The notes beneath the pieces are model-generated. The model saw only the letters and a program-made list of their open reading frames with translations, ran no database searches and had not been told where the DNA came from. From assembly GCA_003024785.1 (NCBI GenBank), contig PUQB01000251.1, positions 287,261-351,260 on the forward strand: a stretch of DNA of 64,000 nucleotides, given 5' to 3'. This stretch comes from Selaginella tamariscina (lineage: Eukaryota > Streptophyta > Lycopodiopsida > Selaginellales > Selaginellaceae). Each line of letters begins with the position of its first letter. Within the stretch, counting starts at the first letter, position 1. The position numbers and the translations under genes were made by a program. Of the stretch, positions 3,311-50,849 are shown one piece after another.

Positions 3311-4125
3311 TTACTTAGCACTGAGATTATTTTTGATATAGTTGACCTCTCGAGAGAAGTAGCTGGCTATGGTGTCCCACGGATTTGAATCATTGTCATT
3401 GGTGACATAAACCCACCCTACATTCTGCTGATAAGCACGAGCAATGACATCCCCATAGCTGGAACTGCTACCATCCGTGACATTGTAGAACAAGGCGTAG
3501 AAGTTATCCCTGGAATACTTGCTAGTCCACGGACTCTGAGTCCAAGAGAGGCCACCAACACCATTCTCAAATATACAAATCACATCGGCTACTCGAGATC
3601 CATTGTAGAAGAGGTATGTCTCCAAAGTTGAAGCTCCAGGATTATTAACCACTAGAGAATTCGAGCTCTTGGACTTCACATAGTTGTAGAGGCTCTGGTA
3701 GTAAGGCTGCTTCCCGTCGGTGTTGCTAACCTCGTCAAAGAAAATTCCATTGATAGTTGGATAGAAGCGATACCAGCTATCAACATCGGCTTTCACCAAG
3801 TTAGAATCTCGGTTGCTGTAAGTAGTCGACACATAGCCGATTGCTCGGCCTGTTTGGTTTTGGAAAGCTGCAATAGCACTCTGATAGCTTGACTGAGCTG
3901 CAGATCCTGGACCGCTGGCCGGGTTGGGAATTGCTACGACCCTGTTTGGTAAGATGCTTGCAGCGGAGTTGAGAGATGACCACGCTTGGGAATTTGTAGT
4001 TGGATCAAAGTAGGCTGGAACCATGATGTTCATTTGCTGACAGCTTTGGGATTTCACTAACTGGATTACAAGGCCGAGCTGCACCAGGAAAACAACAGCG
4101 CACAAGACGACATTTTCCTATTCAT
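3311..4125 (-). CDS. Secreted spherulation-specific family 4 (spherulin-4-like) protein, start region frame-broken
   Basis: The conserved frame runs from about 4105 to the TAA at 3311, about 264 residues. It begins with a hydrophobic signal peptide (CAVVFLVQLGLVIQLVKSQ), then NIMVPAYFDP, IPNPASGPGS, IGYVSTTY and NGIFFDEVS. These blocks in this order are typical of the spherulin-4 family of fungi, slime moulds, bacteria and some plants, whose biochemical role is not settled. The only good upstream ATG codons (4123-4125 and 4111-4113) are one frame off. The conserved frame itself opens on a non-ATG codon right after an in-frame stop, so one base appears lost between about 4105 and 4113, or a tiny upstream exon exists. 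Several N-x-S/T sites fit secretion. Intronless over the visible part. The family call is firm; the state of the start is not. Confidence 0.8.
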
Positions 4126-5045: not shown

Positions 5046-5054
5046 GTTTTACTG
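5046..5054. repeat. Left target-site duplication of the 14.5-kb transposon
   Basis: GTTTTACTG here recurs exactly at 19560-19568. Directly inside each copy the element ends begin GAG on both strands. A 9-bp duplication is the usual length for Mutator-like elements. Confidence 0.8.
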
Positions 5055-5155
5055 GAGTCCCGACAAAAAGAGGGCTTCCGGGCTTGGACCCGGAATATTC
5101 TAAAGAATCTACCAGAATATTCTTAGAATATTCCTAAATATTCTTAGAATTTAGG
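5055..5155. repeat. Left terminal repeat region with GAA/TTC clusters
   Basis: The end begins GAGTCCCGACAAAAAGAGGG, then a GGGCTT pair and several AGAATATTC(T/C) units at 5092-5150. The reversed right end has the same order: GAG start, CAAAAA, GGGCTT twice, then AGAATATTC units. The inverted repeat is degenerate beyond short blocks. GAATATTC units are alternating GAA/TTC, as in heat-shock elements. Confidence 0.7.
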
Positions 5156-5262
5156 ATTTTGGCTCAGTCGACAATTAACAACAAAAAATTTAAATCATAG
5201 CCATGTTTATACTGTATTATTAAAGTTTTATTTCAACACCAAAGAGTACAATTCAACACTTG

Positions 5263-8200
5263 TCACTTCTTCTTACGATTGAGCAATGTTGCAATTCGTG
5301 AACCACCAGTCCTACTTGACGTCGCTATTGCTTGGGTTGGGATTTCCTCTGGCTGGATGTTCTCTTTAATCCTGTTCATAGGAATTCTCCTGAGCTCAGG
5401 GTTCTTCTCAGTCCCAATAATGTTTCTCCCCAGCTCGATAGCTGCAAGCATTGAGGACCCCGTACCACTGCCTATATCCCAGATAAGATCACCTGGCCGG
5501 GTGAGTCGTTCTATCACGAGCTGCATCAATCGAGTGCTCTTCGATTGGTAGTCCATCCTGCATGTGAAGATAATGGTAAATACTTAATTTATTGAAATGA
5601 AATGCCTACCATGCTTCTTGGAACCGCTCAGGATTATCAACAAGAATTGTTGATGACAAACGCAGCGGATTATCGCGCAATCCTCTAGATGCATCTTGGA
5701 AGACAAGAAGGAGCAGGATGCTCTCCTGTTAAAACATCAAAAATCATTAATGAACTTCATGAATAAAGAAAAAAGTACCTTCATCTTGTTGCGGTAGCCC
5801 CAACCACACCCTCTGTAGATGTAGTACGTTGCAGCAAGTTGAAGGTCCACCACACTTGCAGCTCGGACAACTTGATCCCAGGTGTTTGCTGCAGCAAACA
5901 CAACCAACCAACCATTTGCAGCCATATGCATACCTGCAAACTGGAGTGCTTCATCGAACTTCACTGGATCAAGGTAGAGGTATGGCGTATCACTCGTTGT
6001 ATTTCCTGGCAAGGTCCCATTTGGAAGGTCGAAGATCACCAAGTTGAAACCATATTCTCCCGCAATATGCTGGTAGCGAGTCTGGCTGTCAGCTGTATGG
6101 TACTTGGCCACCTGTGTCTGAACTTTTCTATAAGGAACCAGTCTAGCGTCAGGAACCTCCTCTTCCTTCTCATCCGTGAGCACGGCCTATTGCATCTCCT
6201 CGATGTCATCAATCGCCAAGAAATTATCACCTCGAGTTGTAGCAAGTGAAGGGACGAATGTGACCAAGTCATCCTTGATGTCCATGGTTCCCTGCGATGG
6301 TAGCACTTCAGATAAATTGAATAAGGCAGTTGGATCGCGAGTAGTGGAGGTGCCAGCTACTGTATCTGAGGTCTTCTTTGACTGCTGCACAGGCTGACGC
6401 CGCTTTGCCTTGGCCTTTGTCTTCTTAATGAAGTCGACCTCTGCCGGATCCCATGAGATGCATGGGAGATCTTTTGAGTGTTCATTGTAGAGATCCTTCT
6501 CCCATGTTGGTGGTTGCCCAGGTGGATAATCAAGCCAGAACGGTACGTTTACACGTTCGAACTCTGTCAGGCCAGATCTTGTCTTCGACCACATGTGTGG
6601 TTCTTCCATGTAATCTGACCAGAATACCATAGTCTGTGTGTGAGGCACCTTTCTCGCTGCGACATACCTGTAATGAACATATAGTAGTGTCAGAATGTAA
6701 CAATGTCAAGAAGATCATCCTTACCTCCAAATCATCCTTCTTGCTGTCTCTTCGTGTTCGAGGAACTCTTTCGGCTCTATGGAGTAAGTGAACTTCACAC
6801 ACTCATGGAATGGCTGGAACATCACGTTCTTGCATTTTACCCGCACTTCATCGTACCAAGTCGTGAAATCTGTAACCGGCTTGCTCCACTCGCCATCCTC
6901 TGAGTCCCGTGAGAATCTGTACTGCCTCCTCTCTGATCGCTCGCCAATACAAATCGATAGTAAACCACCTTATCCACTCCTTATCCTGAACACCGGTAAT
7001 CCAAGTGTCTCTTGCTCTCTCTTTAGATTGAGACGTACCAGTTTAATGAAGTACATGATTCTCGTCTCGTTTGGAATTCTCGCCCTTGAAAGCGCGTACA
7101 GCTTTTCCAACCCCATCCATCTGCATTGTTTCCATGTGATTTGGGTCACCTTGTCGAACCACTCTTCACCCAATGCAAGATCGATGATGGCTAAGATCTT
7201 CATCATGCGCTTGTCATGCTTATGTAGACCTGTTGTTGCTCCTGGTATTTGTTGCCTTTGGATGCCCTTGCAGCCTTCTCAAGATCATCCTCAATCTCAC
7301 TCTGTAATTCACAGACGTAATCAACTAAGTAATATAAGTGTGAGACGTGGTACCTCAAAAAAATCTTTGCACAGATCAAATTCGGAAGTGGATGCCAAGC
7401 TTGTTGTCCAGTTGCGCTTTCCTTCCACTTTCTTATGTCATCTCGTTCCTTGTCACTGAGCTTGGCCAAGATCTTCGTTGTGCCCTCCTCACTGGTGCAA
7501 CATGTCTTCACAGATAGCAGAAGATGTGGCAGTGTGGTTTGCACTGCCGTTGCGGAGGAACTGCATATTTGAAAATCTCAAAGTTAGTTAATCCTATGAT
7601 CTAGAGGTCACTATGTTTACCTATTAATTTGCTGAAACATTATCACAAGCTGAAGATTATCCATGACCCCAGCACGGATGAAGCCTGAACGCACTCTCAC
7701 TGCCCACTGATTCTTATCTTCCGTGTCTTCTATGTACAGCTTCTGAAGCACCTTTAGCCTGTGATTACCATCCCAACAGATGAACTTCTTCATCGAAAGC
7801 ATTGGTGCCCATTGCCGAAACATGTCAGACTGAAGCTCCTCCTCAAAAGCCAAATGCTGAGCATACATCGCTTCATCGCTTCTCAATGCTACCAGATTTG
7901 CATCTGTCATGGGGTCCCCAACTTGAAGGATGAACTGAGTGGTGTTGCGCAAATAACCAACTGCCTTCTTGAAACTCCTAGTCAAAGATTCCAGATCCGC
8001 TGGATTGACTCTCCGCACCTGCTCATTTCCCAGAATTCGGCAAATAGGGACATCCGGTGCCTCTCCATATTCTCGGATTGTGATCTTCGCGAGAAGACGC
8101 ACTGCACTCTCTGAATGCATGTTGGCTGCAATGTTGTAAACTTCCTCATTATCTGGCACTTCTGCTTTACCTTCTTCTTCTTCTTAGCAGCCTCTGAATC

Positions 8201-8540
8201 TCCAGCAGCTTTGCGTCGTCTCTTCTTGTTCTTGGGTTCATCCCTCTTCGTCACTCGACAAAGTCACTGCGCATGAGGCTTGTGTGCCTTCTGTCTGCTC
8301 ATGTGTCTCCTATGGTAAGACATCATCCTCAACTTCTTCAACAAAGTCTGATTGTTCTTGTTGGGGTTGAACTACATCCTCTTGCTCTCCTGACCAGTCC
8401 TGCTGGCTTGCCTGTTCAACTGGTATCACTTGAAGGTCCTTGTTCCTGAACCACAGCCAGCTTCCTACTTCCTCTCCCACGACCCGATGCCCTCTCTGAA
8501 TTGCAGCTCTAGCTTCTGCTTCTCTCTCAGTAGGCTCCTT
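5263..8540 (-). pseudogene. Transposon gene A: ParB-like domain plus beta-class DNA N4/N6 methyltransferase, frame-broken
   Basis: Likely start is the ATG at 8540 (MKEPTERE...), followed by an acidic and then Lys/Arg-rich leader. The segment 8159-7621 holds a ParB/Srx-like core: EQVRRVNPADLESLTRSFK and the WDGNHRLKVLQKL box. Exons near 6183-5779, 5725-5610 and 5557-5263 give a methyltransferase with motif IV as FDLPNG, then motif I as WDIGSGTGS after a PGD lead-in and an ending GRNIIGTEKNPE. Motif IV before motif I marks the beta class, which methylates amino groups of adenine or cytosine in DNA. Clear introns are 7561-7620, 6668-6724, 5726-5778 and 5558-5609. In-frame TAGs at 8310-8312 and 6187-6189 and several frame shifts (about 8255, 8170, 7250, 7030, 6880) break it. 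DLPNG instead of the usual (D/N/S)PPY is a variant active site. It diverges from gene B. Confidence 0.72.
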
Positions 8541-8909
8541 CATCTTCTTTTTTGTAAACGTTGTGAAGAGCGCATCTACAAAAGCAATAAGGTTTAACAA
8601 AAAACTGTAATAAATGTTCAAAGATGTTTATGGGAAAGGAAAAGGTCAGCCCAAAGTTAAAAGTGTTACAATATTATACTTTAAAACTTCTGACGAGAAA
8701 TAATCATGGTTTTGTCATAACTTTACCACCATTTTCTGCAAAAGTGTGACTTAGGGTTTCAGTTACTAGGGATTGATGTTAATTAGAGTTAAACCATGCC
8801 TTATGGCCATAATGCAGCATCATGTAGCATTCTCATACATGTGCATGTTTATGGTCATGCATGTACATTTGTATGCTTTTGTTCTAGATCTAGGGTTTCA
8901 TTCTAGGGT
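8541..8909. promoter_or_regulatory. Divergent promoter region between transposon genes A and B
   Basis: The 369-bp gap separates the minus-strand start of gene A from the plus-strand start of gene B. On the minus strand a splice acceptor (TTTTGTAG) ends near 8579, so gene A may have a 5' untranslated exon with an intron here. Positions 8633-8772 are repeated in inverted orientation at 15122-15258, in the other divergent promoter of the element. Confidence 0.65.
8633..8772. repeat. Shared promoter module, copy 1
   Basis: About 137 bp match the reverse complement of 15122-15258 with few differences, including GGTCAGCCCAAAGTTAAAAG and GTCATAACTTTACCACCATT. Both copies lie in divergent intergenic regions of the same transposon. 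Confidence 0.85.
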
Positions 8910-10437
8910 ATGATGAATGGAATGTATCGCTTGGAGTCGGCAATCCTTGAAAGAACTCGCTTCAATAGGTTAGAGGATTTGATTCAATGGCTTGATATGC
9001 AGATGGCTCGTGGCTGCTCAATGAAGGATTTGGCACAGGTGCTAGGCTACAATCCTAAGTATTTATCTTTTGCTCTCCGGAAGTTGGGCTGGAAGGGTCA
9101 ATTCTCACAACTAACCATGCAACAAATTCGGTCAACAATCCAAGAAGCTATTCCACTAGATCGATTTGGAAGCAACTGGGGTGTGAAGGTTGTAAAGGGG
9201 TATCTTGCATCTCAGGGTTGTCGCGTTTCAGAGTTAAGAATTTTTATATATATATTTTTTTGGTGATTTTCATAGATGTTTTTCCAGGAAAAGAGTGGGG
9301 CGTGCATTACAGTCCATAGATCCTTCTAAAACTGAACGCAGGAAAACAAGAGTCATTGTACGAAGGACTTATGACATTATGGAGCCAATGCTATTGTGGC
9401 ATATGGATTGTAAGTTGTCTTAGTTTGTTAAGTTATTGATATGTTTTTTTTTGTAGCTTATGATAAGTTGGAGGGCTACGGGATGCGAGTCCATGGATTT
9501 ATTGATGGTGGTACTCATTACCTTCTTTGTTGTGTGGTGTCTCGGAACAAACGTGCTGCAACTATATACAATGTCTATGCTGAAGCAATTCGACAATTTG
9601 GACGGCCGAAGAGAATCCGCTCTGATTTTGCATGTGAGCACTCTCTCGTTGAGCTAGATATGCAACTCACATTTCCGGGTCATCAACAATGCTTCCTAAG
9701 AGGTAAATCAACTCGAAACCAGGTAAGTCATTTGTTTTAAACATTTTTGGAAACTTGTTTTATTTTTTTTTCCACTATAGAGAATAGAACGGTTTTGGCG
9801 GGGTTTATTTGAGAAGGTTTTCTGGTACTACAAGTACCTAGTCAACCTCATGGAGGACGTTGGACTGTTGGATATTTCAAATCCTTGGCACAAGGAGTCA
9901 TTATGCCTTTCTTGGATGCCTGAGATCCAAAGTGCTGTTGACGAGTATATCAGTGCATGGAACTATCACATAGTGCGGGCTACACATGATCGTAAGTCTC
10001 ATGTTCCTGTGAAAGAATTCCAGCCCGAGGAGCGGAGAACAAAGTAAGCATATTTTTTTTTTCTATAAATGTTTAACACTTCCTCATTACAGTGTCATTC
10101 CTCCTTTAACGTCTAAGGAGATTATGGTCATTGAGGATGAACAGAATGATAATGAACCAGGTGCTTTCTTGCCAAACGTAAGCTCATTTTCAGTGTCATT
10201 TGATGTAACTAATCACTATCCTAACAGGAGTTCCGTATTGTTCGAGATGCTGCATATAAAGCTAACAAAACAGGTTTGAAGGAGGACGTGTTGTTTTTGT
10301 TACATCTTGATCTGACTTTGGAGTGTGCATCTGCATTCCAACAGAACTTACCATTGCAAGATCATGTCGCTCAAGTACTTGAAGGTGGAGATGATCACCG
10401 GAAAAATGTTGTCAACATGATAGTGCCGTTCTTATGA
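8910..10437 (+). CDS. Transposon gene B: integrase-type DDE recombinase, six exons, intact
   Basis: Exons 8910-9232, 9288-9409, 9457-9722, 9781-10043, 10093-10177 and 10228-10437 sum to 1269 bases with GT-AG introns and one open frame of 422 codons. Residues about 35-65 (MKDLAQVLGYNPKYLSFALR) look like a helix-turn-helix. The RNase-H-like core follows: WHMDSYDKLEGYGMRVHGFI with Asp148, IRSDFACEH with Asp205, and RIERFWRGLFEKV with Glu240. This gives a D-D-E triad with 34 residues between the last two. It matches the integrase-core proteins of unplaced mobile elements in fungi and animals (typical motifs WHIDGYHKL...HG.IDG and RIERLW). Its role is probably DNA strand transfer, but its place beside a MULE transposase is unexplained. 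Convergent with gene C. Confidence 0.85.
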
Positions 10438-11446
10438 ATATATGCTTTATTTCTTTATATGGAAAGCTTTCATTTTATTTCTAGCTTTATTTTTATTTCT
10501 AAGCAGCTCCTATGTTGTTTACAAACAGTATCCCATACATGATCTTGTATAGACTCACAAGTCATTAGATATAGAAGTTAGAAGCCACTGTTGACATATA
10601 TGTCATGCCGCAGCCTCTAGCTGTTCAACATATTTTTCTGGAAGCTTTACGAACAGTATCCCATGCATGATCTTGTATTGACTCACAACACCAAGTCACT
10701 AGGCTATAAAGTGAGCCTTTGAAGCTTTACAAATAATATTCCATGCATGACTCGTTCATGTGAAGACTCATTACCTTAGATACTTGAGGTTTAGGAGCAC
10801 TCCTGTTGAAACAAGATAGGGTGGTAAAAGCTTTAGGATGCTTCAAGGTAGCCATGGAGTATGTTTATACGAGGATGAGGTTTGAAATCCAAGCCGTTTG
10901 ATTTCATTGGCTAGACCAATCTCGACCCTTAGAAATGTGGTTTGAAATTGCAGGTTTTAGGTTTCCTGGATCCTTTGCACAAACAAATAAGAAATGGCAT
11001 CTATGGAAGCAATGGCAATGAGCATGGCATCTCTCAGCAGCGATTCATTGTTTATGTGCAACAAATGCAGCAAATGGACAGCTTTATGTGGGAATAACAT
11101 ATGTGGAGAGTGCTAAATCGTCTGGTGTAGGTATATATACTCTTGTGTGTGTGTGTGTGCACGTGCGTGCGTGCATGCGTGTGTGCATGAGTTTGTAGTG
11201 AAAATTCAAAATTGTCTCCAATGCTAATATTATCAAAGCTAAAGACACATCTTCACTAGAGAACAATGCTATGTATGATCTTGCATATAACAATATAGAC
11301 TCACAGCACCAAGTTAGACTAGGCTATAAAGTGAGTCCCTAAAGCTTGGCTAGAAGTATCTAAGGACTTACATTTCAATTAACATGAAATAAATATAAAG
11401 GAAGTGATTCATTAATAAAATGGCAAAAAAAAAACATAGACTTAGT
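10438..11446. other. Convergent intergenic region with diverged repeats and a GT microsatellite
   Basis: No gene is seen between the stops of genes B and C. A roughly 60-bp theme (TGATCTTGTAT..GACTCACA..CCAAGT..CTAGGCTATAAAGTGAG) recurs near 10535-10580, 10665-10725 and 11275-11340. A (GT)n/GTGC microsatellite occupies about 11143-11190. It probably holds both 3' untranslated ends. Confidence 0.6.
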
Positions 11447-14400
11447 TCAGGCATAGCCATAGTCCTTGTAGGCAATAGAGAAAAGCAGCTTGTTTTGGAG
11501 AACTTTAAAGCTTGAGTATGTGTTGTGAATACACAGGCTCCTAGAACACGTTCGTCCAACGGGAAGGTACTCTTCGGACTTCACAATTCCAGGTTCGAAC
11601 TTGATGCTTAAACTGATGTTCTTTTTGAAGTAGCTCCTATCAGTCACAAACCTGTAGAACTGCCACAACTCCTTTGGTGTCATCTTTTGAATAACAGTTT
11701 TGAACATTTCGTAAGTCATTCTTGGGAGGTTCACGTTGACACACTCACGTAGTAGTGGCTCAGCTTCAACTCCAAATGAGGCAGAGAAGGTCCGTTCAAG
11801 GAAGTCGACTCCTATGTTGTCAAGGACAAAATGAAGCTCTGCTTTCCTCGTGCTTCCAGCATTTTGTGCAAAATTCTCAATGGTGAATCGAAAGCCATCT
11901 CGCAATGCAGTTGCAGTAACGTTACACTCCTTGAAAAGCCGATTGTATACAACTTGCCTCATGACTTTGTTCACCTCATCCAAGAACGTCTCTCCAACCT
12001 TGATTTGCATCCACAAAAGTGTGTAAGGTTCCAAAGCTTTGACATTTGGAAGATGTTCAATTCCCGCTTGCTGAGCCTCATGAGTTGTGAAGGTTCGTAA
12101 ATGGTTCAACGGATCCCACAGGTCAGGTGCAGATGCTTCAAGGTCTTGTTCAAAACGGCCCCCTGGATTGAACCTCGGATCATTAATTGCTGGCATATTG
12201 TCCACGAGCAAATGAAAGGTAGCATAAGTACATTTCCGAGGCACACAAGCTTTTAGCCGCACAAGGTGGAACATAATTTGTCCCATGATCATGCACTAAA
12301 AAATAATGTAAGCTCATATATCACAGAACTCTTTTTATGTTACCTGTCGATGTGCTTCCTCTTCTAGCTCCTCATCTTCCATGACGAGAGGATGCCAAAC
12401 ATGCCCGTTTTTACTATGGCCAAAGTATTCTCTCAACTGGAAAATAAAAAAGTACAACTATTAGAAAAACAAAAAAAAAAAAAGCTTACATGTGACGAAG
12501 CTTGCTCCCATCCTGCCGCAAAAACACGTATACTAGGACCTCCTGTGTCAATGGTGCCATGTTCGATGATGCCTTTTCCCTTGTAACCATACTGGAATGT
12601 TGGTCTTGGAAATTGTTTAAACATGTCCGGATGAAAAGAGCTATCAAAGTAGAAGTACTCGCTATCTTCAAGTACCTAGTAAATACAATATTAGAAGAAT
12701 ATGAACTTGAAGAAAAAAAAAAGTACAAACCACTTGCCGAGCCACAGGAACATCCTTCCTATATAGCTGAGAGAATGTCTTCATGATAACTTCATCAAAT
12801 ATAAAGTCCTGCATATCCGCAAATATCTCTTCTGCAGCCTTTAGTAATTTCCAACTTGTTTCTCCATGGTTCTTTTCTTTTGCATGGGTTTCACTCTCCA
12901 ACTGTAACTTCTCCTTTTCCACCTGTTTTTTGAGCTTTTGCTGAGCCTCAAGCCACCTAGACTCCATGTTGTTGTACTTCTCATGATAAGCAACAGCAAG
13001 TGTGATGTGGTTTTGTCCAGTATTACAAATGCTGCTTGAAGTTGTAGAAAAGCCCTCCACAATATCACAAATGGAGGTGCCAAAGTTATCAAAAGGTGGA
13101 AAGAGTATCCCTGCACATTGATAGAAGTGAGGAATTGCTTGTACAAAAAAGAACATTACCTCTAGTTGCCCTCGGCACTAATTCATTAGCATGATCATGA
13201 GGTGAGACTAATTCTTCCCCAAGAGGAAATGAAGGAGTAGCCTCTTCAGGAAGTCCATGTGCAGTTGACAAACTACATTGTGGAACTTCTGAAGATCCAA
13301 AACATGAACCATGCATGCAAATAGTAAGAATAAACATATAAATAAGTGCACCTTTTGACTTGCTAAGAGGTGTTCCATTTGCCGTCGACGTCTCTAAGTT
13401 GGAGAATTCATCAATGTCTTCGTTTTCCATGTTGAAATCTTCAGTTGCATCTTCCACTAGCTCAACTTCTTCGTGGATAGTGGCTGGATCATCCTCCTCA
13501 AGTACATGCTCTTCCACAAGCTCATCGGGATCCTCATAAGTTGCATGATTCTCAACTTCTATCTCTAGCTGTTCCTTAACAATCTTTTTGGGACGAGGAT
13601 GTTGAAGTCTTCTTTCCTTCTGCACAAGCTCACGCTCAGCAGTTTGAAAATAAAACTTTTGCTGCCAAGGTTGTAGGTGCTCTTCCTTCCACAATAGCAC
13701 GACTGAAGGCTGTCCTTTTGTAATGTAGCCTGTTCGGTGAACTGGTGTGTCCGGACTATACACAGCAGGGAAGTAGCTTGCCTCTCCAACTGATCGTGGA
13801 CGAACACTAATGCCGGCTCTCTTGACCCAATAACCTTTTGGCCTCCGCTTCTCTTGTTCATCTATCTTGAGCTTCGCAAGTAGCTGGACTGCAACAGCTT
13901 TTTGAGCTGTCCCAGGAGGGAACTCTTCAAAACACTTGTAACCATCTCCCCATTTTAAATCTGCTAGAACATTCACCTCCACTGGCAATAACTTCTTGTG
14001 TTTAGTATAGGTACGGTTCTTGTCCACAACAACAGCACATGCCACACTCACGCTAAACCAACGAGAAATCATCTTCAAGTTAACAGCAGCCAAGGTTGAA
14101 CTGTTCAGATGTGTACGTCGTTTGCTATTGACTCTGGCAGTGTCATCCACCATTTTGGTAACCGCTTCACTTAGCAACGTAGATGATCCATATGTATTCT
14201 ACAAACACAAAATTATTGGACCATTTACATTTAAACCAAGAAAAATTACCCTTGCTGCAGTTGTCATCTCCTGCATTTGACTTGGTGAAGGTGTTGAATG
14301 CTCTAGAAGTTTCAAACCTCGTTTGACATCCTAAAAGTACATCTCAGTAATTACAAAAAAAAAAAATGGCAAACACAAAGTAAAAAAGCATACCGTTCTA

Positions 14401-14881
14401 GGTAGCACTTCAGCTAGAAGTCCTTGTCTAGAGCATTCTCTTGTTGAGAAGTCATTGCATTTCTGTAATGGAAGAGCAAGCTTCAGCAAAAATGTGAAAA
14501 AAATTACCTCTCGATTTGTAGTCTTAGATGGAATGAAAGCTGAACGTGCATTGTCCTCATCAATATCCTGCAAGTTTAGAGAAACTAAATGGACTTCAAG
14601 TGCTTGAACATACCTCTGAGCTATCATCTTCTACTACAATGGGTTTATGTTGATGTATAGAAGCTTGTAAAACTCGCCGTGAAACACCAACCTCATCTAG
14701 ATGAGCATTTAGTGCATCAATTGAAGGAACATCTGCTCGAGGTGCAATTTTCCTTCTTCTTGGAGATGTCTTCAATGGAGAAACAATGTCCAAACCCACT
14801 GCTTTCCTCTTTTGCCGAGTCATCTGCATTGGAATGTGAGAAAACAAAAAACAGGGATGAAAAAAATCTTACCGGTGCCAT
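11447..14881 (-). CDS. Transposon gene C: HECT-domain E3 ubiquitin ligase, 11 exons, intact
   Basis: Exons (high to low) are 14881-14873, 14823-14614, 14567-14508, 14462-14394, 14330-14250, 14198-13352, 13288-13160, 13110-12731, 12675-12490, 12436-12344 and 12295-11447. They join with GT-AG introns to 2913 bases, 970 residues and a TGA. The N-terminus is basic (TRQKRKAVG). The middle is acidic, followed by a coiled coil at about residues 505-560. The C-terminal ~350 residues are a HECT domain: GTIDTGGPSIRVFAAGWEQA in the N-lobe and ELWQFYRFVTD. The C-lobe ends EYLPVGRTCSRSLCI...LQNKLLFSIAYKDYGYA, with the catalytic Cys near residue 938. HECT enzymes form a ubiquitin thioester and pass ubiquitin to a substrate. 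The substrate may be a host silencing factor or the transposase, which is inference. Convergent with B, divergent from D. Confidence 0.88.
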
Positions 14882-14977
14882 GAAGCTTGGCTCCTAGGGC
14901 TCGCACCGCCTAAGTCAATTAAATGCCTATCTAATTTTGGATTCAATCTAGGCCATTGAGGCAATCAACGGTCAGCC

Positions 14978-15098
14978 ATGCATAGATGAGATCATCATAT
15001 GCTTGGATGAATATGTTAGATTCCATACATAGCCATGGATGACTATGCTAGATTCCACATATATTCTTGAATGAATATACTAGATTCTATGATACCCA
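14978..15098 (+). repeat. Threefold degenerate repeat, about 40 bp
   Basis: Near 15002, 15032 and 15070 the theme GGATGAATATGTTAGATTCC recurs with changes (CATGGATGACTATGCTAGATTCC, TGAATGAATATACTAGATTC). Confidence 0.6.
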
Positions 15099-15121
15099 TC
15101 CATGCCTATTTAACCATGTAT

Positions 15122-15258
15122 CCTAGAAATTGAAACCCTAAATCACACTTTGCAGAAAATGGTGGTAAAGTTATGACAAAACCATGGTTTTTTCTCGTCG
15201 GAAGTTTTGGAGTATAGTATGCTGCACTTTTAACTTTGGGCTGACCTTTTCCTTTCCT
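15122..15258. repeat. Shared promoter module, copy 2 (inverted relative to copy 1)
   Basis: Reverse complement of 8633-8772 over its full length with scattered substitutions. Relative to genes B and C the module has the same orientation, 140-380 bp upstream of each start. Relative to A and D it likewise has one shared orientation. Confidence 0.85.
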
Positions 15259-15297
15259 TAGATGTTTAATAAAAATTAAAAAACTACTAGCCCTCAC

Positions 15298-15722
15298 AGT
15301 CGGCGTGCCGACTAAGAGAGTAGTTGCTGTAAGTCCCAGTCGGCATGCCGACTGGACTGGCATCAAAGGGAGTCCCAGTCGGCACCGACTGGGCCTGGCA
15401 AAAAGGGAGGCCCAGTCGACATGCCGACTGGGACTGGCATCAAAGAGTCCCAGTCGCATGCCGACTGGGCCTGCCATCAAAGGGAGGCCCAGTCGGCATG
15501 CGACTGGGACTGGCAACAAAGGGAGGCCCAGTCTGGGACTGGGAACGAAGCAAGGCCCAGTCAAATGCTAGGTGGGACTAGAACAGTCAACCCTAGTCAA
15601 AATGCTGACTGGGGCTGGAAAGTCAACCCTGGTCAAAATGTTGACTGGATCTGGAACAGTCCACCCAGTCGGCTTGCCGACTGGGACGGACAACGAAGTC
15701 AATCCGAGTCGGCTTGCCGACT
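15298..15722. repeat. Array of eight 16-bp palindromes (AGTCGGCATGCCGACT type)
   Basis: Perfect or near-perfect palindromes lie at 15298-15313, 15338-15353, 15377-15390, 15414-15429, 15452-15466, 15491-15505, 15667-15682 and 15707-15722. The first six recur every 37-40 bases with spacer text such as GGGACTGGCATCAAAGGGAG. Sites 7 and 8 follow a stretch with decayed half-sites (CCTGGTCAAAATG..GACTGG). Site centres vary (CATG, CGTG, CTTG), while the AGTCGG/CCGACT arms are kept. This suggests binding sites for a dimeric DNA-binding protein rather than a neutral satellite. Confidence 0.85.
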
Positions 15723-16211
15723 CGGATTTCTGCAACTGTGAAGAGATGTAAAAGATGAACAAATCATGAAAAGATCATGAGCAGATCATGAAGAAATCAG
15801 AAAAATACTCACCCCTCAATGGAAGCCTATTGTGATTAATCCCTGGAGCCACACTTGCCTCCACACTATGCCCCAATGAGCCCCTGCTCCACGAAAACCT
15901 AGCCGCCCTAGCTGCCCTAGCCGCCCTAATTGTAAAACCCTAGCCGCCTAAATCAATTAAAAACCAACCTAATTTCTGTAAACATATTGCATGCATAATC
16001 GCCACTTGTACATAGTAAAACTTTTTAAATTTACAAAAAAAACCTACCCAGACGCAGTAAATTAATTTACTCTTCTACCCAACGCACACAAAATATTATT
16101 TTAATATTTGTTAATGAAATGATTGCCTCACGACTAACAAACACATTAACCATCGTGTGTAATATGTTCATTGTCTTTGAATTTAACTTTTGTTTGTTCC
16201 ATTTTTGCTAC

Positions 16212-19200
16212 ATGGCAAGAATCAGCTACAATGGTGTTGACAAGGACTTCCCTGCAGATGAAGATGGTATTGCATTTGTCTTTGAAACAGATCTCAGGTC
16301 TGCATTTGACATTCCACCTTGGCAATCTTTTAAAGTGCTGCATTTGATGTCTGTTGTTGGTGGAGATGCTGCGAATGTTGAGGTAGAACCAGAAGGGGCA
16401 AGAGCTAGCAGTTTTGTGTATTACACACTTCTTCCTTCCAAAGGACCGCTATTCCGGTTGGAGACAACAGATCGGGACAATTCTATGGTAACAATACTTC
16501 GCAATAGTCAGAGATGTAGGATTGGGAAGCAACTGGTGGTCTCGTCATCGATTCAGCAAGTTGCTGAGGTCCCAGAAGATTGCAACGGAAATGTGATTTA
16601 CGAGTTGCCAGCACACGAAACAATGAAGGACAAGTACAAAGGGATGAATAGGAAGGATGGGTGTGATTACTGGACTCAACGCTGCACAACACATTGGAAT
16701 GTTCCAGCTCGTGTTAGTCGCAGTTCATGTATTGGCCACATGAAATGCGTAAAGGAAACATGTCCGTTCATCAGCTTCAGTAAGAAAGCAAATGACTGCC
16801 AATTTAAGGGCACCATTGATAAAGTCCAGTTATCTTCAGATGGTAGAGTGCTTGGAATGAAGTGTGTGCATTGCAACAATGAGCCCCTTCTAGTGCAGAC
16901 ATGCTCCGTTGTTGCATATTACATAATTCCAGATGATATCACATGCACGAGGCTTTTCATCCATCTTGGAGAACATCAACACCCACGTAGACCACCCGAA
17001 TCCATGGTCTCTAAAGACAGAGCTAAGGAGACAATCAACAAAGCAGTCGCTGCAACCCCAAGAACTAATCAACGTGTCATAGAGTTTCAAGCAGCACGCA
17101 ATATAATTTTGGAAAAACTGGTAACAGATTCTGGAGATGTATCATACGACAAGGTTCTGTCAGATCTACTACCACTCACAAATCACCGCCGGTAAGCAAA
17201 AAAATTATTATTTCCTTTTGGAGATGCTTAACCTTTCCAATGTAGAACAAGAGAATGGATATCTCAGGCTAGAACAAAGAGTTTCGAAGGACTTCTGCAG
17301 TTAAAGAAGAAGCTATCAATCCCATTCATACATGTTATCCACATACCCGGAATGGACCTCAACGGAGCTGAAGAGCAGCCTTTAATCTTCAAAATGACGG
17401 TTGCCGGCCCAGGATCCGGAATAGACTACATTAGAAGGTGTCAATCTGGAGGTGATCTCGAACAGCAGTGGGTGGTGCTAGACCACACATATCGTATTGA
17501 TGATTGGTGTACACTGGGAATACATCTCTATGATCCATTGTAAGTATTAACATATCTATGTTTTAAAATACTTACTAATATAATGCACTTATGTTTGTGT
17601 AGTTTAAGGTCGATGGTGACACTTGCTTATGGTGACATGATCAGGGAGGATAGTGTGGCGGTGATCAAATTTTTGAACACTATGCTTCAAGTGTGCAGCA
17701 AGCAAGGACTTCATAATGTGAACTTTGCGGGGTTCATGTCAGATGAGTCAGGTGCAATTTGGTTAGCATTGCGTCAAGTTTTCAACAATGGGTCAAAGAT
17801 GAGAGGAAGAGAAAGGAGTTGTTTGTTCCATTACATGCAGTCAGTGCGTCAAGTTACAAAGAAGTGGATACTTGAGGAACACAGGGAGGAGCACATGAAC
17901 CTTGCACGCTCATGGCCTGCAGCACTAACCAACCAAGATAAGTTGGAACGACGAGTAATGTTGGAGTCATTTTGGGAAGGCAGGTCCAGTAACGTTAGCG
18001 CTTTGCAAACATGGCTGTCATGGTGGGCAAGACATGAAGATCATATTTCCATGACAGAGATAATTGACTTGACAGAAGATGGTGTTGCGAATGTGCCTAC
18101 CACTAACAACTCCGAAGTTGTTCATGCAAGAGCACGAAGAGCAAGGCTGACGAAGCGTGTTCCTTTGTTGGAGGCAACAATGTTAGATTTAACAGATGCT
18201 GTTTTCCAAAGTGCAAAGGTCAAGGCATCATTTGAAGGGAGATATTCAGGCACAGGTCCTTCCATGGAAACTCTTCTGAAACGTGCACAGCAGAAACTTT
18301 CAGCGGGAAAATCAGTGTCTCCAACAACTTTTGCAAATCTTGTTAGTGATGAAGAGCATCTTGCAAGTCCAGAGTTTGCCTCTACAACAAATGTTCGTGT
18401 TCGAACCGTTCGTCAACCGTCAACTGGGGACCATGGGATTGATGCACTTCGTACACATAGACATGACACACAATATGCAGAACAAGTCATCCCAAATGCA
18501 CGCAGGAAAAAACTCAAGTTTCAAGATGTCAATGTCACTGAAAGAGAGACGTTGATGACTCAGTGGGCCATCAGACGCATTGGGGAGGCAAGTCAGGTGA
18601 AATGTCTAGGTCTCACTCAGGACGGTAACAGCAAGTGTGGCAGACCCATAGGATATCCACATCGTGTACCGGCACCAGGATTTCACGGTAGACGGCAATA
18701 TACAAATGCATTTGGGAACATTGAGTTCACTCATCAGATGTATGGTTCTGCCCACGCGATTCTTGTTGCTTCAGACGACCATATGCAGGGATTCCTCCTG
18801 AGAGTATTCCAGAAGTTCCAGAGGTTTGGCCAGTTCAAAAAGGAACAAACTTGAATGCAAATGAGGTTGAAGCTCTTCTGAAAGCAGGATTCAAGTTGGA
18901 GGGATTTGAAGAAATGGTAGACGACAGTAGTAGCCGAATGGATCGAACACCATCACCACCAAGAGGAGAGGGAGCACATAGAGTACCAACATACCATGGA
19001 CGGAGTGTGCGAACACCAACAAGAATGTCCAAGGAACATGAGAAACATTACAACCAGGCAAAGATTCTTCAAGGTCGGATCAACAACGTGGAGGTGGTTC
19101 AAAGAGGGAAGACTGAGGCCTTCATTGTCTCTGCAGGCATGCAATCTGCTAAGGTAACAATTTCTCTGTTCCGTCATGCACTTGTGCAACTTTTCAGAAA

Positions 19201-19388
19201 GCCAAGAACTGGAGCCCCTGCCAACACATGTATTTTGTGTACACTCATGTTCTTGGATTGACCCAACGATTACTTACTTCTTACAGAGGCGGACCCTTAC
19301 TCCAGCAGAAGTGCATCGGTTATTGGTTGATTGCAAGCGCAATGTCGAACCTGCGACTTTTAAGTTTAGTCGGTATAGTAAAGTCTAG
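16212..19388 (+). CDS. Transposon gene D: Mutator-like (MULE) transposase with WRKY/GCM1-type zinc finger, one frame break
   Basis: Exons 16212-17191, 17246-17539, 17603-19153, 19198-19236 and 19287-19388. The start is the ATG opening MARISYNGVDKDF; the upstream extension is AT-rich and unlikely. Residues about 170-260 carry CIGHMKCVKETCPF...CVHCNNE...HLGEHQHP, a Cys-Cys...H-x-H finger of the WRKY/GCM1/FLYWCH type. The MULE core follows: VVLDHTYRI (first Asp, ~404), GFMSDESGAI (second Asp, ~470), the CLFHYMQSV C-x2-H box and TTNNSEVVHA (Glu, ~595). It would bind the element ends and cut them. The frame breaks near 18788, where a GGG run would restore the frame if it were GGGG. Beyond it the coding pattern continues (IPPESIPEVPEVW, then RMDRTPSPPRGEG) through two short introns to the TAG at 19386-19388. 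Without a repair the protein stops at 18854. Confidence 0.8.
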
Positions 19389-19454
19389 TCGGCAAATAAT
19401 TAGCGTTTTTCACTTGTTGGTCGGCATTTTATATTGAAAGTTAAAGATAATCTA

Positions 19455-19559
19455 CTTGGCAGAATATTCTAGAATATTCCCGTTTATTTGACAGAATATT
19501 CCTGGATATTCGGGAATATGCAAAAGCCCGTTGTACAAGCCCGGTTTTTGCTAATCCTC
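19455..19559. repeat. Right terminal repeat region with GAA/TTC clusters
   Basis: Positions 19461-19480 read AGAATATTCTAGAATATTCC, four perfectly phased GAA/TTC units. A second cluster lies at 19493-19520. Outward of these come GGGCTT-type blocks (as AAGCCCG) and the CTC end at 19559. It mirrors the left end in order but with much divergence. Confidence 0.7.
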
Positions 19560-19568
19560 GTTTTACTG
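19560..19568. repeat. Right target-site duplication of the 14.5-kb transposon
   Basis: GTTTTACTG, identical to 5046-5054 and immediately outside the right element end. Confidence 0.8.
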
Positions 19569-20165: not shown

Positions 20166-20228
20166 GTTGAGATGGCCAGATTAAGGTTCTGGTCCGCAAG
20201 GGCGTGGGTTTAAATCCCATTCTTAACA
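20166..20228 (+). pseudogene. tRNA-Leu(AAG) relic lacking the D arm
   Basis: The acceptor strands GTTGAGA (20166-20172) and TCTTAAC (20221-20227) pair. The anticodon arm CCAGA-TTAAGGT-TCTGG gives anticodon AAG. A class-II variable arm (TCCGCAAGGGCG type) and a T arm with GGTTTAAATCC follow. After TGGCC the sequence jumps straight to the anticodon stem. About 18 bases forming the D arm are missing, apparently lost between two GGCC/GCC repeats. It should not fold as a normal tRNA. Confidence 0.75.
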
Positions 20229-31686: not shown

Positions 31687-34600
31687 CTATTGATGTTTCG
31701 AGAAGATTCTGCTGACGTTGACTCTCCAGCTGGCCACACATTTTTCCTTGTCGTCTTCCAAGTTACGATTTTGATCGTATTCCGTGTTAGTATTTAATAC
31801 CGATATTTCTGTGTCCGTCGTATCGTGCCGTTCGTATTCCGGATCATTGTCAAGATCTTGCTCTGGCTTGTTAGTTGTATATTTTTGTATTCGATTTGTA
31901 TTCGTAGTAAGTATGACTTTTGTTGTAGCATCCATCAATATGACCGTGTTGTTCCCTCGTATGTCGGTAATTATACGGTCCATGCCATTTGGACTTGAAT
32001 TTATGACCAATCGGTCGAAGATTCCCTTGATAATGCCATACCATGTCTCCGACTCAGAATATGGGTCGCCGTTGTACTCGTCGTAATCGATCATGCCATG
32101 CCTTAATATGCATTTGTATAGCTCGTATATTAAAAACTGCTTGTTGTCGTTTTTTCATTCAAGTTTTTTCGAGTTGTAATAGTCGTTGCTTAACTTGTTC
32201 TGCCTCTCCAATGCCATATTCAAGCGACATCCGTAATGATGGTATAATATACTCTATTAGGCGTAATTGCTTCCAATCCATATGTAAGTTGAAATGGAGT
32301 AAACTTACGATATGCCCATAATGCTGATGGAAGTTTTCATCCCAGTTTTACGATTAGTGTTTACTATCTTGGTTAGTACGTCTTCAATATATTTTGTTGG
32401 TAGCCTCTGCATGTCCGTTCCTTGTGGATAATACGCAGAGAGGTGTAATGTTTTACCAAAGGTGCCCCGGGGAAACGCGCAGCGGGAAGAAGTAAGTGGC
32501 GGTTGTTCGAGAATGAGATGGGGAAAGACCTATTCGTTGCAAAGTACTTTATGACGTTGTTGACAAATGAGTTCCTTGATCACTATAAGTTCCATTGGAG
32601 CGCCAAATCGTACTACGATATTCTCGTAGATAAACTTAGCTACCCGTATTGCGCGAATCCCGTAATGCGATAGCCTCTGCCCATTTAGTAACATAATCCG
32701 TGAGTACCAATATATATTGATTCCGCTTGCTACTTTTAGGATTGATTGGTCCCATGAAATCCATTCCCCATTTCATAAATGGAGCTAATGGTTCCGTTGG
32801 ATGCAATGGTTGTACTTGATGATGTGGAGCTGGTTGGTGTTCATTGCACTTCAAACACTTTTGACAATAGTCGATAGCGTCCTTGAATAACGTGGGCCAC
32901 CATAATCCAGACTGTAATATTTTTCGTGCGTTAATGTTCCTGCAAAATGTCCGCCATGTTCTCCAGAATGAGCTTCCCGTAATACGGTCTGCACTTCCTC
33001 CATTGGTACACACCTCCTTAACACTTCATCTTTGCCTTTCTTATATAGTATACCTGACACCATGCAGTATGGCTTACATCGTAATACGAGTTGCTTGCGC
33101 TGCTGCGTTGTTGCGTACTTAACCGGTGCTGTTCCAGTAGTTAAGAAATATTCAATATCTTGCAGATATCCTTCGTAATTTCCATGCTTTGGTGGTTGTT
33201 CCTGTTGTACCTGGAATAAGTTAGCATCTGGTAATTCATCATTCACGCCAACACCTTCTTCATATTCGTAATACGACTTAGGAAATCTGCTTGTTGGTGT
33301 AATTTGCCTGGTTTGTGAATGATTTGAAAATCGAACTCCTGTAATAATAAAAACCAGCGTACTAATCTTCCTTCTAGCTTAGTCTTGCTTAGCAAATGTG
33401 TCAAAGCTTGATGATCAACAATGAACTTGACTTTGTTTGCAAGTAAATAATGTCGAAATTTCTTTGCTGCATATACCATTCCGAGAGCTTCTTTTTCCGT
33501 AGTCGTGTAATTTTCTTTGCAGGTGCTAACCGTCGACTTGCGTAATATAATGGTCGATCTTTCCCATCCTCCTGGGTTTGCGTTAATATGCATCCGATAG
33601 CGTATGACGATGCGTCCACTTGTACATGAAACTCCTGTTGCCAATTTGGACTCGCTAAAATAGGAGCCTTCATTAATGCCTTTTCAGTGTATTGAAACTC
33701 TGTTCGCATTCCGCATCCCATTTGAATGGTTGTGTTTTCCTCAACAGCATTGTTAATGGCTTCGCTATTGCTGCATAATTTTTGATAAACCTTCGATGAT
33801 ATCCCATCTTCCCTAAAAGCCGTCGTACTCCACTTACGTCTTTAGGTGGTTGCATTGTTTGTATGACTTTGATTTTATCTTGATCCACCATTATTCCGTC
33901 CTTGCAGATAATGTGTCCAAGCAAAATCCCTGATCTCACGGAAAACACGCACTTCTCCGGATTAAGAGCTATATTGTTCAATCGGCATTTCCCAAACACT
34001 TCGTAAACAGTCCAGTGTATATCTTGTGCTCCATAAATACTGAAATCATCCAAGAAAACTTTCATAAACGTGGTCAAATAATCCCGGAATGTTTCGCTAA
34101 CCAAACGTTGAAAGGTAAATGGTGCATTACATAGCCCAAAAGGCATCACGCGATACGCATATGTACCCCAAGGACTGATGAATGCCGTTTTCGGTTGATC
34201 CTCAGGATCTACTTGAACTTGGTTGTATCCTGAAAATCCATCCAGAAAAGAATACATTTCATGTCCTGCTACTGTATCCAACAATTCTTCGGTGAATGGT
34301 ATTGGGTACGTATCTGCCTCGTTACATCATTCAACTTCTTATAATTGACACAGATACGTAATTTGCCATTCTTCTTTGGGACTACGACTATTGGTGATAA
34401 CCATTGCGGTTTTCAATTGGATATATGAATCCAGCCTGTAATAATTGTCCACTTCTTCTCTCACTTTCGCTAAAAATGTTGGATTCATTCGATATGCTTG
34501 CTGTTTCCTCGGAACTGCTGTGGTAATAATTCTATCTTATGAGTACAAATCGTAGGTGGAACTCCCTTAAGATCTTCGTAGCTCCATGCAAAAACATCTG

Positions 34601-38115: not shown

Positions 38116-39202
38116 ACATTTCCCTTGGAGATGTCTTTATTGTAGTCTTGTATTGTGAAGTCCATGTCCCGTTCAATTGTGAGGTCTCCATTTGCTTAGA
38201 TTTTGTCTCATCATTATAATTTCTAGTCAGCATAGAATTCGAGAATCACTTCTTACTCTTTTGGCAAATTAAGGTAGTTTACATCCCATGTTTGGCCATC
38301 CTTTGTATCGATAATGATTTGTCCACCTTAACTTCCACCATTACTACACCATGCTATGTGTCATGGATGCTATGGTGCCCAAATCACACTAAAGGTCCTC
38401 AATGTTTTGTTCTTTCCATATGTTAAGAAGCTTTGTCTTTTCAAAGAGACTCAAACTGGGAAGTGTGTGAGTTCATAATGTCCATTTGCTAGTAGGCTTT
38501 TAGGCTAATAAAATACTTTGAAATCTGCAATGTCCTTATTAACATGGAAATTTTTTATGTGTGCAAAAATCTACACAATATAAGAAATGTTTCCTATTAA
38601 AGTTTAAAGATTTCATCTTTATAATAGTTTTATATATAATATTTATCTCATCAAGGATAACATTTTATTTTGGCCATTGCCATGATAACGATATTTTACT
38701 CATAAAACAATAATATATTCATTAAATAATAATCATAATTATACACTTGCATTACTAAAATGATTACTAAGAAATAATAAGTATGCATACTTATTTTTCT
38801 TTTAAAAATTCATTTTTTTTTATGCATTACCCTCCTCTGTATCTCTCTCCATAAATTTCTTTATTGTCCTCCATAGCTCTTCATCCCTAAGTAAATCATG
38901 TTCTCCTCTACCTCTTCCTACTAATCTCCTCCATAATTTCTTTATTGTCCTCCATAGCTCTTCATCCCTAAGTAAATCATGTCCTCCTCTACCTCTTCCT
39001 ATTAATCTTTCACTTGGGTGGATTCTTCCTACCACGTGTCAAATTCGAACCAGCGACCTACTGTCAATACTAAAAGCACTCAAATCCTAAACCTAAACTT
39101 GAGAAACGTGCTTTGTCACATATTGTGTGTGTGGGAGAAGACATCCACGTTCTCAGGTACGCAGGTTCTGCATATATAATGTAGTAATTCAAGCATGCGC
39201 AA
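38116..39202. other. Intergenic AT-rich DNA with one tandem duplication
   Basis: No gene seen. An 81-bp unit (CCATAGCTCTTCATCCCTAA and neighbours) is repeated directly at about 38848-39008. The rest is AT-rich. The last 100 bases before 39203 should hold the PPR promoter, but no clear TATA box stands out. Confidence 0.5.
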
Positions 39203-43129: not shown

Positions 43130-43213
43130 CCGACCTTAGTTCAGTTGGTAGAGCGAAAGACTGTGGTCTATACGGGTATCGTTAGGTCGCTGGTTCGATT
43201 TCGACAAGTCGGA
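43130..43213 (+). pseudogene. Intron-containing tRNA-Tyr relic with GTG instead of GTA anticodon
   Basis: The acceptor strands CCGACCT and AAGTCGG pair with one mismatch. The D arm TTAGTTCAGTTGGTAGAGCG and the GTTAGGTCGC..GGTTCGA segment are those of plant tRNA-Tyr. Exon 1 reads GACTGTGG where plant tRNA-Tyr has GACTGTAG, changing the anticodon to GTG (His). A short intron (about TCTATACGGGT) follows. The T stem (GCTGG/TCGAC) is mispaired. Probably not functional. Confidence 0.75.
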
Positions 43214-49924: not shown

Positions 49925-49929
49925 TTTCT

Positions 49930-50847: not shown

Positions 50848-50849
50848 GA

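Follow-up and report, generated by a model that had tools for sequence, protein, structure and literature searches.

A GingerRoot/IS3EU-like transposon with a HECT gene nested in a two-gene transposon of Selaginella tamariscina

The inverted repeats of GingerRoot transposons are 100-150 bp long. GingerRoot is described, in excerpts of PMC10045372, from the clubmoss Selaginella lepidophylla, and the IS3EU elements of rust fungi, as presented in excerpts of PMC12730594, have ends of the form TAYGG..CCRTA and carry an alpha-kinase gene opposite to the transposase. Excerpts of the latter source also describe fungal DNA transposons with TET/JBP dioxygenases, which are proposed to help in escaping silencing by methylation (PMC12730594). 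For Mutator-like elements (MULEs), a target-site duplication of 9-11 bp and terminal inverted repeats of 100-500 bp are given in an excerpt of PMC3310237. For the VANDAL/VANC system of Arabidopsis, an excerpt of PMC5735166 reports a tandem short motif in non-coding DNA, the number of which varies between copies.

We analyzed a 64,000-nt stretch of Selaginella tamariscina DNA (the window) in which one locus is, virtually without doubt, a nested insertion, with an inner GingerRoot/IS3EU-like element lying inside an outer two-gene element. The outer element spans positions 5055-19559 (14.5 kb including the insert; duplication GTTTTACTG), and the inner transposon, 6,632 bp long with TA..TA ends, occupies 8629..15260, between both outer genes. 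Without the insert, the outer element measures ~7.87 kb and has two divergent genes, encoding a transposase and a methyltransferase-like protein. The inner element, with its DDE transposase and HECT gene, jumped into the intergenic region of this 7.87-kb element. We remain highly confident, if slightly less so, when nesting and the outer element as a two-gene unit are taken jointly. An earlier note on this DNA had described a single self-contained transposon with four genes; four gene-like regions do exist, but their domains are only partly as claimed.

The termini of the outer element are GAGTCCCGACAAAAA... and ...TTTTTGCTAATCCTC, with the left end (GAGTCCCGACAAAAAGAGGGCTTCC...) at 5055..5123 on the + strand and the right end at 19490..19559 on the - strand. 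The inverted GAG ends reported earlier do recur, since a 25-mer from the left end, with <=2 mismatches allowed, matches the genome 140 times and its reversed control 0 times, but their inverted match is short and imperfect (~40 bp). MULEs without long repeats exist. The 9-bp direct repeat proved real, with GTTTTACTG at both 5046..5054 and 19560..19568, and besides the window, 15 of the 20 further copies that we fetched have flanking repeats of their own. These 20 copies, a non-random sample, are 20 of the 21 best-scoring matches after the window. With a 3-base shift of the ends permitted, a script found a perfect flanking repeat of 8-10 bp in 14/20, and in copy L020 a repeat was found by eye; L009 and L023 have no more than 8 bp. 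No flanking repeat was found in L018, L024 and L025, and the left end was not found in L017 and L028. That the 20 best copies are nearly identical while their flanking repeats differ points to recent spread by transposition.

Both outer genes are highly repeated, with 207 genome places for an exact transposase 30-mer and 201 for an exact methyltransferase 32-mer (controls, 0 for each), or ~200 matches per gene in a 300-Mb genome. Among the matches listed, which are exact and number at most 100 for each gene, 83 of the 97 methyltransferase sites are followed downstream, on the same strand, by a transposase site that is also listed; the 14/97 methyltransferase and 17/100 transposase sites without a listed partner are upper bounds. 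Spacing in the 83 linked pairs listed is 5.2-6.8 kb in 82 cases, the only exception being the window, at 12.4 kb. What survives of the earlier claim is a repeated, real transposon in which the transposase mostly occurs together with a DNA-methyltransferase-like gene, and we regard the outer family, with good confidence, as a two-gene autonomous element.

The outer family apparently was active recently, given a substitution divergence from the majority sequence of 0.04-0.29% in the 20 fetched copies, although choosing the best-scoring copies biases both youth and intactness upwards. The window copy is older than these; CG/CHG deamination is visible, and 34 private changes are spread across the whole outer element. 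In this copy, frame-shifting indels are present in both outer genes, along with two stops in the methyltransferase gene, so that the earlier count of two fully open genes fits both inner ones, as modelled, and neither outer one. Of the 21 outer copies, five have a transposase frame without indels; for the methyltransferase frame this is true of L023 alone, the comparison reference, where it is open by construction of the model. The indels look like assembly errors, having few neighbouring substitutions, but just 1-9 per copy fall inside homopolymers of 3 or more.

The methyltransferase-like gene (5263..8575, - strand, with the start at 8575 taken from the sister-copy model) encodes 1016 aa as modelled in L023. 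Its product matches Pfam PF01555 above the cut-off (2.9e-9, and 6.8e-9 in another scan) and PHROG phrog_67 (4.3e-12), and has MboIIA, DpnA and CcrM as relatives in the PDB (E 0.003-0.009). The identification as a DNA methyltransferase holds in that the AdoMet-binding motifs X-I of the beta-class N6A/N4C enzymes are present, but motif IV, for which the consensus of such methyltransferases is (D/N/S)PP(Y/F/W), is degenerate, reading DLPN where three phage enzymes have DPAY, DPPY and DPPY. Because of this motif, DNA methylation is left as a candidate activity only. The ParB domain assigned to one exon failed every profile test, with 0 families in Pfam, PHROGs and NCBIfam and 0 matches in the PDB; the exon presumably offers a WDGNHRL-like motif only. 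A single-sequence AlphaFold model of it was uninformative (pLDDT 41), phage tblastn gave one match at E = 9, and the three phage methyltransferases examined, among 85 matching records, are annotated without a ParB domain. In open-licence PMC papers, covered in part through titles and the beginnings of abstracts, we found no Mutator/ParB/methyltransferase transposon in Selaginella.

Conceivably, the element has captured the methyltransferase-like gene in the way of Pack-MULEs and carries it as a functionless passenger that hitch-hiked in a copy that happened to be amplified. The degenerate motif IV would fit this, as would the broken modelled frame in all fetched copies but L023, the existence of copies (L009 and L017) with most or all of the gene missing, and singleton variants that look neutral (n = 42, omega-like 1.18). 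Against it, the gene equals the transposase in abundance (201 versus 207), a long multi-exon frame is kept in one copy, both outer genes share a structured intergenic array, and the variants shared between copies (n = 16, omega-like 0.41, p = 0.08) lean synonymous, at 7/16 versus 3.9 expected. Constraint on the gene is only suggestive, since the copies hardly differ (13 variants in the transposase, 58 in the methyltransferase) and the tests are therefore weak. On balance, we find a passenger rather unlikely.

The outer transposase gene (16212..19363, + strand, with the end taken from the sister-copy model) has 3 exons and encodes 1018 aa in the models of intact copies. Its product, a putative DDE-type enzyme with a SWIM-like finger, would move the element by cut-and-paste. 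The label of MULE transposase given to it could not be upheld by profile, as Pfam returned no match to the MULE transposase domain PF10551 even at E<=10; the SWIM zinc finger PF04434 reached only E 0.026 (14.5 bits, below the cut-off of 19.6). It is thus possible, though we doubt it, that the outer element is unrelated to Mutator and represents another or a new DNA-transposon superfamily with 9-bp duplications. In favor of this, besides the missing PF10551, a visual comparison of the 77 PF10551 places of this genome with the listed outer copies showed none that coincide. Alignment to four same-genome MULEs was equalled by 40-198 of 500 shuffles, and hhalign against seven same-genome MULE stretches likewise gave nothing better than shuffles. 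A sequence search of the PDB with the transposase core yielded 0 matches. For both outer proteins, a protein search in which the 7,995 candidates with the most words in common were scored gave none at E<=0.01, and a search of 5.8 billion proteins (6,292 candidates) gave no relative at E<=0.1, both searches working through shared 5-residue words. On the other side, 9-bp duplications and GAG ends fit Mutator-like elements, and the motif order D..D..CxxH together with a possible SWIM-like finger, which we take to be a signature of Mutator-like transposases, also counts against a different superfamily.

Between both outer genes, at 15298..15722, lies a palindrome array with the unit CCCAGTCGGCATGCCGACTGGG and a period of ~39 bp. 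The 22-bp palindrome has 1,341 sites in the genome (reversed control, 0), and an array of 5-10 units was present in all 21 outer copies (16-bp core, <=2 mismatches), with 5 units in the window. In the three copies profiled, half sites beyond the intergenic region were single matches only, and all 50 of the array sites listed, spread over nine contigs, lie inside outer copies, as judged by eye. The methyltransferase-like protein would bind this array between the outer genes, and the bound protein may control a shared promoter and/or keep the element unsilenced, like VANC in VANDAL. We propose only tentatively, with rather more doubt than conviction, that the protein is an array-binding regulator, and infer that the outer element may have an anti-silencing role, in which the results do not implicate the HECT gene. 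A more far-reaching reading, which we rate as improbable in its entirety, would make the outer family a new lineage of DNA transposons, perhaps a superfamily, in which a protein with a methyltransferase fold recognizes the element-specific palindromes arrayed within its own divergent promoter and so keeps young copies expressed and unmethylated, while unprotected copies such as that in the window would become CHG/CG-methylated and decay.

The inner transposon is bounded by a 6-bp target-site duplication, GATGTT (8623..8628 and 15261..15266), and by terminal inverted repeats at 8629..8770 (+ strand) and 15122..15260 (- strand), which are ~140-155 bp long and 88% alike in the window. These ~140-bp repeats, bounding both middle genes, were overlooked in the first reading of the sequence. 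At least 14 other copies, nearly full length and 98-100% identical, occur elsewhere (25 of 93 candidates scored). TA..TA ends and 6-bp duplications are seen in all 10 other copies for which we fetched the ends; two of these have common flanks, which leaves 9 distinct cases. The termini are TATGG..CCATA in nine of the 10, the left end varies in C682 (TATGAAGG), and the window has TATGGG..CCTTA. A 9-bp duplication, AGATGTTTA, was considered and dropped, because in the remaining copies the duplication is 6 bp long and adjoined by TA termini. By these sequence characters, the inner element has the features of GingerRoot/IS3EU.

Both genes of the inner element are fully open as modelled by the gene finder. 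The DDE transposase gene, with an integrase core (8910..10437, + strand; 411 aa in 6 exons as modelled), bears out the assignment as an integrase-type DDE protein with a match to PF24764 at 1.4e-39 and the triad D137, D194 and E229. All 11 homologs have PF24764, and the D, D and E are invariant in the comparison with the 6 of the 11 that were aligned. The second gene (11447..14829, - strand; 1005 aa as modelled) was correctly named as HECT, with a match to PF00632 (1.4e-8) that covers positions 140-300 of the 306 in the profile and so reaches the C-terminal catalytic region, and its product presumably has an LP..TC pattern, read by eye at the C-terminus.

For the outer copies, an exact empty site was found in 16/20 of those fetched, the left and right parts joining with the expected 9-bp overlap. 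None of the 20 contained inner sequence of more than 150 bp, and the outer copies held no exact match to 22-mers taken at the ends of the flanking pieces fetched for inner copies. We came across no evidence against nesting. A single 14.5-kb Mutator-like element mobilising all four genes between GAG ends can draw on outer ends and a 9-bp repeat that are real, but we give it next to no chance: the DDE and HECT genes are in 0/20 fetched outer copies, so that at other loci the four genes lie apart, an outcome that the earlier note had itself named as refuting its model; the empty site is exact; the inner element is found elsewhere with its own ends and duplications; and in 82 of the 83 linked pairs listed, the spacing of the outer genes leaves no room for a 6.6-kb insert. 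The two divergent gene pairs noted earlier arose because the inner element inserted between the outer genes. An assembly artefact fusing unrelated stretches has some basis in the many small indels of the assembly but is just as improbable, since both inner junctions are clean, with the 6-bp duplication and the TA ends found in other inner copies, and a matching empty site is present in sister copies. With nesting, the false claim of a four-gene transposon is replaced by two separate, checkable objects.

Compared with described systems, the inner element shares with GingerRoot/IS3EU the 6-bp duplications, TA..TA ends, ~140-bp inverted repeats and an integrase-core (rva_4) DDE transposase with an intact triad, whereas its second gene is a HECT-domain gene. 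IS3EU and HECT were not found named together in open-licence PMC papers, which does not imply absence in print; if such a pairing is new, the inner family would extend the range of accessory genes in GingerRoot/IS3EU by a HECT gene.

In the outer family, a transposase for which no relatives were detected is combined with a methyltransferase-like protein and an array that resembles an operator. With MULEs it shares 9-bp duplications, GAG..CTC ends and, as we read the transposase, the spacing of a DDE enzyme, a CxxH motif and possibly a SWIM-like finger; it differs in having no PF10551 and imperfect inverted ends of ~40 bp instead of 100-500 bp, and its similarity to the MULEs of the same genome is not significant. 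Like VANDAL, the outer element has a second element-encoded protein and a tandem short non-coding motif of variable number, but in the outer element the protein is methyltransferase-like and the motif a 22-bp palindrome; a Pfam scan of both outer proteins showed no further domain of a kind known from VANC. Like the fungal TET/JBP transposons, the outer element is a DNA transposon carrying a gene for an enzyme of DNA-modification type, the activity being predicted only, whereas the enzyme fold, the host and the transposon lineages all differ.

The earlier note had read window positions 5055-19559 as a single 14.5-kb Mutator-like transposon uniting genes for mobility, DNA methylation and ubiquitin functions. 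Instead, we find two DNA transposon families, one inside the other, with the inner gene pair belonging to a separate element that has its own ends and duplication. A repeat search of the window detected inverted arms within 8633-8770 and 15122-15257, which align as ~140-bp inverted repeats. In the genome (300.7 Mb, 1,391 contigs), the inner block has at least 14 other nearly full-length copies with 98-100% identity, besides a copy in two pieces on contig C1043 and fragments (best 25 of 93 candidates scored). All 10 inner copies with fetched ends (nine distinct) run from TA to TA and have a 6-bp flanking repeat, and on this pattern the inner element of the window spans 8629-15260, with the duplication GATGTT. 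The inner copies at C1041:110681 and C147:157546 of the assembly (G000) have identical flanks, suggesting that the locus was segmentally duplicated or that the assembly retains both haplotypes.

The insert is missing from sister copies of the outer element. We fetched 20 further outer copies, a non-random sample of 20 of the 21 best-scoring after the window (C1320 omitted), and none held an inner match >150 bp. Empty sites, a check proposed by the earlier note, were found in 16 of the 20, where left and right parts join with the exact expected 9-bp overlap; in the remaining four the aligned right part begins later, within a variable array. No outer copy contains an exact 22-mer drawn from either end of a fetched inner-flank piece. 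The four genes also are not kept together at the other loci listed. Of the methyltransferase sites listed (97, on contigs up to C639), 83 have a listed transposase site downstream on the same strand, at 5.2-6.8 kb in 82 of these pairs and at 12.4 kb in the window alone. Each list comprises up to 100 exact matches, so the numbers lacking a listed partner (at most 14 of 97 for the methyltransferase and 17 of 100 for the transposase) are upper bounds. At C512:147334 and C515:238440, the outer left end is 7.3 and 8.2 kb from the transposase site, compared with the usual ~6.1 kb, making other insertions likely there.

The ends and duplication previously described for the outer element were borne out: GAG ends, GAGTCCCGACAAAAAGAGGGCTT on the left and the inverse GAGGATTAGCAAAAACCGGGCTT on the right, are flanked by the 9-bp direct repeat GTTTTACTG at 5046-5054 and 19560-19568. 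Using the right part as a query, we obtained at least 41 genomic matches, of which 39, window counted, are nearly full length with 99-100% identity (best 40 of 913 candidates scored). Flanking repeats recur in 15 of the 20 fetched copies, perfect and 8-10 bp long in 14 (script, end slide up to 3 bases) and identified by eye in copy L020. They were absent from L018, L024 and L025, and the left end was not located in L017 and L028; L028 and L010 have a common right flank and thus are non-independent. The outer element without its insert is ~7.87 kb (7.81-7.99 kb in the 13 fetched copies measured that keep both ends and lack large deletions), while L009 is an internally deleted copy of 5.17 kb. 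Most of the methyltransferase gene is gone from L009 and all of it from L017; L009 keeps a matching flanking repeat, which is only 8 bp in this copy and in L023. Genome-wide, we counted 140 left ends, 207 transposase matches and 201 methyltransferase matches. Around the outer element, the window holds retrotransposon remnants at 617-1177, 33673-34326 and 49909-52833 (Pol_BBD, reverse transcriptase and Ty3-type gag), host-like genes at 3311-4117, 39188-40978 and 41472-42512 (Spherulin4 family, PPR protein, GH17 and X8 protein) and two weak tRNA matches barely over the Rfam gathering score (20166-20228 and 43130-43213).

The outer element comprises two divergent genes. The right gene, modeled from intact copies, has three exons and encodes a 1,018-aa protein with the motifs LDHTYR, MSDESGA and CLFH, which we take to resemble the succession of D, D and CxxH in Mutator-like transposases, and a weak SWIM match (0.026) near the C-terminus. 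PF10551 gave no match to this protein at E ≤ 10, and none of the 77 PF10551 places in the genome overlaps, by eye, any of the outer copies listed. When the protein was aligned to four MULEs from the same genome, the scores were equalled by 40-198 of 500 shuffles. We therefore call the element Mutator-like on account of its ends and its 9-bp duplication, without assignment to a superfamily, and the profile tests do not bear out a MULE transposase.

For the left gene (METHYLTRANSFERASE-like, ~1,016 aa as modeled), the profiles support a methyltransferase-like protein, but not the ParB half of the earlier designation as a ParB-DNA methyltransferase. DNA methylase profiles (PF01555, 2.9e-9; phrog_67, 4.3e-12) match its C-terminal part, with the motif order IV-X-I typical of beta-class DNA methyltransferases. 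The ParB domain is unproven, with no match to Pfam, PHROGs or NCBIfam profiles or to PDB sequences and an uninformative predicted fold of the putative region, made without an alignment. Catalytic activity appears doubtful, given that motif IV is DLPN, compared to DPAY, DPPY and DPPY in three phage enzymes.

The region between the two genes holds an array of perfect 22-bp palindromes, CCCAGTCGGCATGCCGACTGGG, with a period of ~39 bp. All 21 outer copies examined have 5-10 units, the window five (16-bp core, ≤2 mismatches). In three copies scanned end to end, half sites beyond the array were no more than single matches. Genome-wide, we counted 1,341 palindrome sites (≤1 mismatch; reversed control, 0), and each of the 50 listed, from nine contigs, lies within an outer copy, as judged by eye against left-end, transposase and methyltransferase positions. 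We suggest that the transposase of each family moves its own family. Given that the methyltransferase-like gene equals the transposase in abundance and that the intergenic array is common to both, its protein may serve the outer element, a proposal to which we give moderate weight, and the array would be its most natural candidate binding site. The best alternative is that the gene is a captured hitch-hiker. Shared variants lean synonymous in both genes (transposase, 5/8 vs 2.2 expected, p = 0.04; methyltransferase, 7/16 vs 3.9 expected, p = 0.08), which is only suggestive of constraint, and singletons look neutral (2/5 vs 1.1 expected; 10/42 vs 11.3 expected, p = 0.73, respectively).

Substitutions separating the 20 fetched outer copies from the majority amount to 0.04-0.29%. 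Relative to the reference copy L023, each of them (L023 itself excepted) has 8-23 small indels, only 1-9 per copy being in homopolymers. The many 1-2 bp indels alongside few substitutions suggest leftover long-read errors; frameshift-based pseudogene calls are unreliable in this assembly, and broken frames should not be over-read. The transposase frame is indel-free in 5 of 21 copies and the methyltransferase frame in L023 alone, which is open by construction of the model; L010 and L028 each have one indel in the latter. The window copy has 0.67% substitutions and is older than the fetched copies. Counted on both strands (5055-8621 and 15267-19559), it has 27 C-to-T changes of its own, at 16 CHG, 6 CG and 5 CHH sites, with 606, 412 and 2,145 such positions available, a CG plus CHG excess (p = 2e-7) not seen in the other 20 copies pooled (7/18, p = 0.35). 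This load reads as a mark of past, apparently long, cytosine methylation, and the window copy has probably undergone silencing.

The first inner gene encodes an integrase-core protein (Pfam rva_4, 1.4e-39). Among 5.8 billion proteins it had 11 relatives, all with the rva_4 domain; by their names eight come from fish and one comes from a fungus, while two have no organism given. D137, D194 and E229 are invariant across six aligned relatives. The HECT domain reported earlier was found in the second inner gene (1.4e-8); all 14 nearly full-length inner matches span this gene, which is thus a property of the inner family and not of the window copy alone. For the two outer proteins, no relatives were found among the candidates scored from a protein database including eukaryotic records, and the outer family would be new, at least as a variant, relative to the open-licence papers covered.

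The six-base duplications, TA..TA ends and integrase-type transposase of the inner element are those given for IS3EU/GingerRoot in PMC10045372, and on these features we assign it, with reservation, as a new member. Its HECT gene lies opposite to the transposase, much as an alpha-kinase gene does in rust IS3EU elements (PMC12730594). The outer array is akin, in arrangement only, to the short tandem non-coding motif, variable in number, that is bound in Arabidopsis by the VANC proteins of VANDAL elements (PMC5735166).
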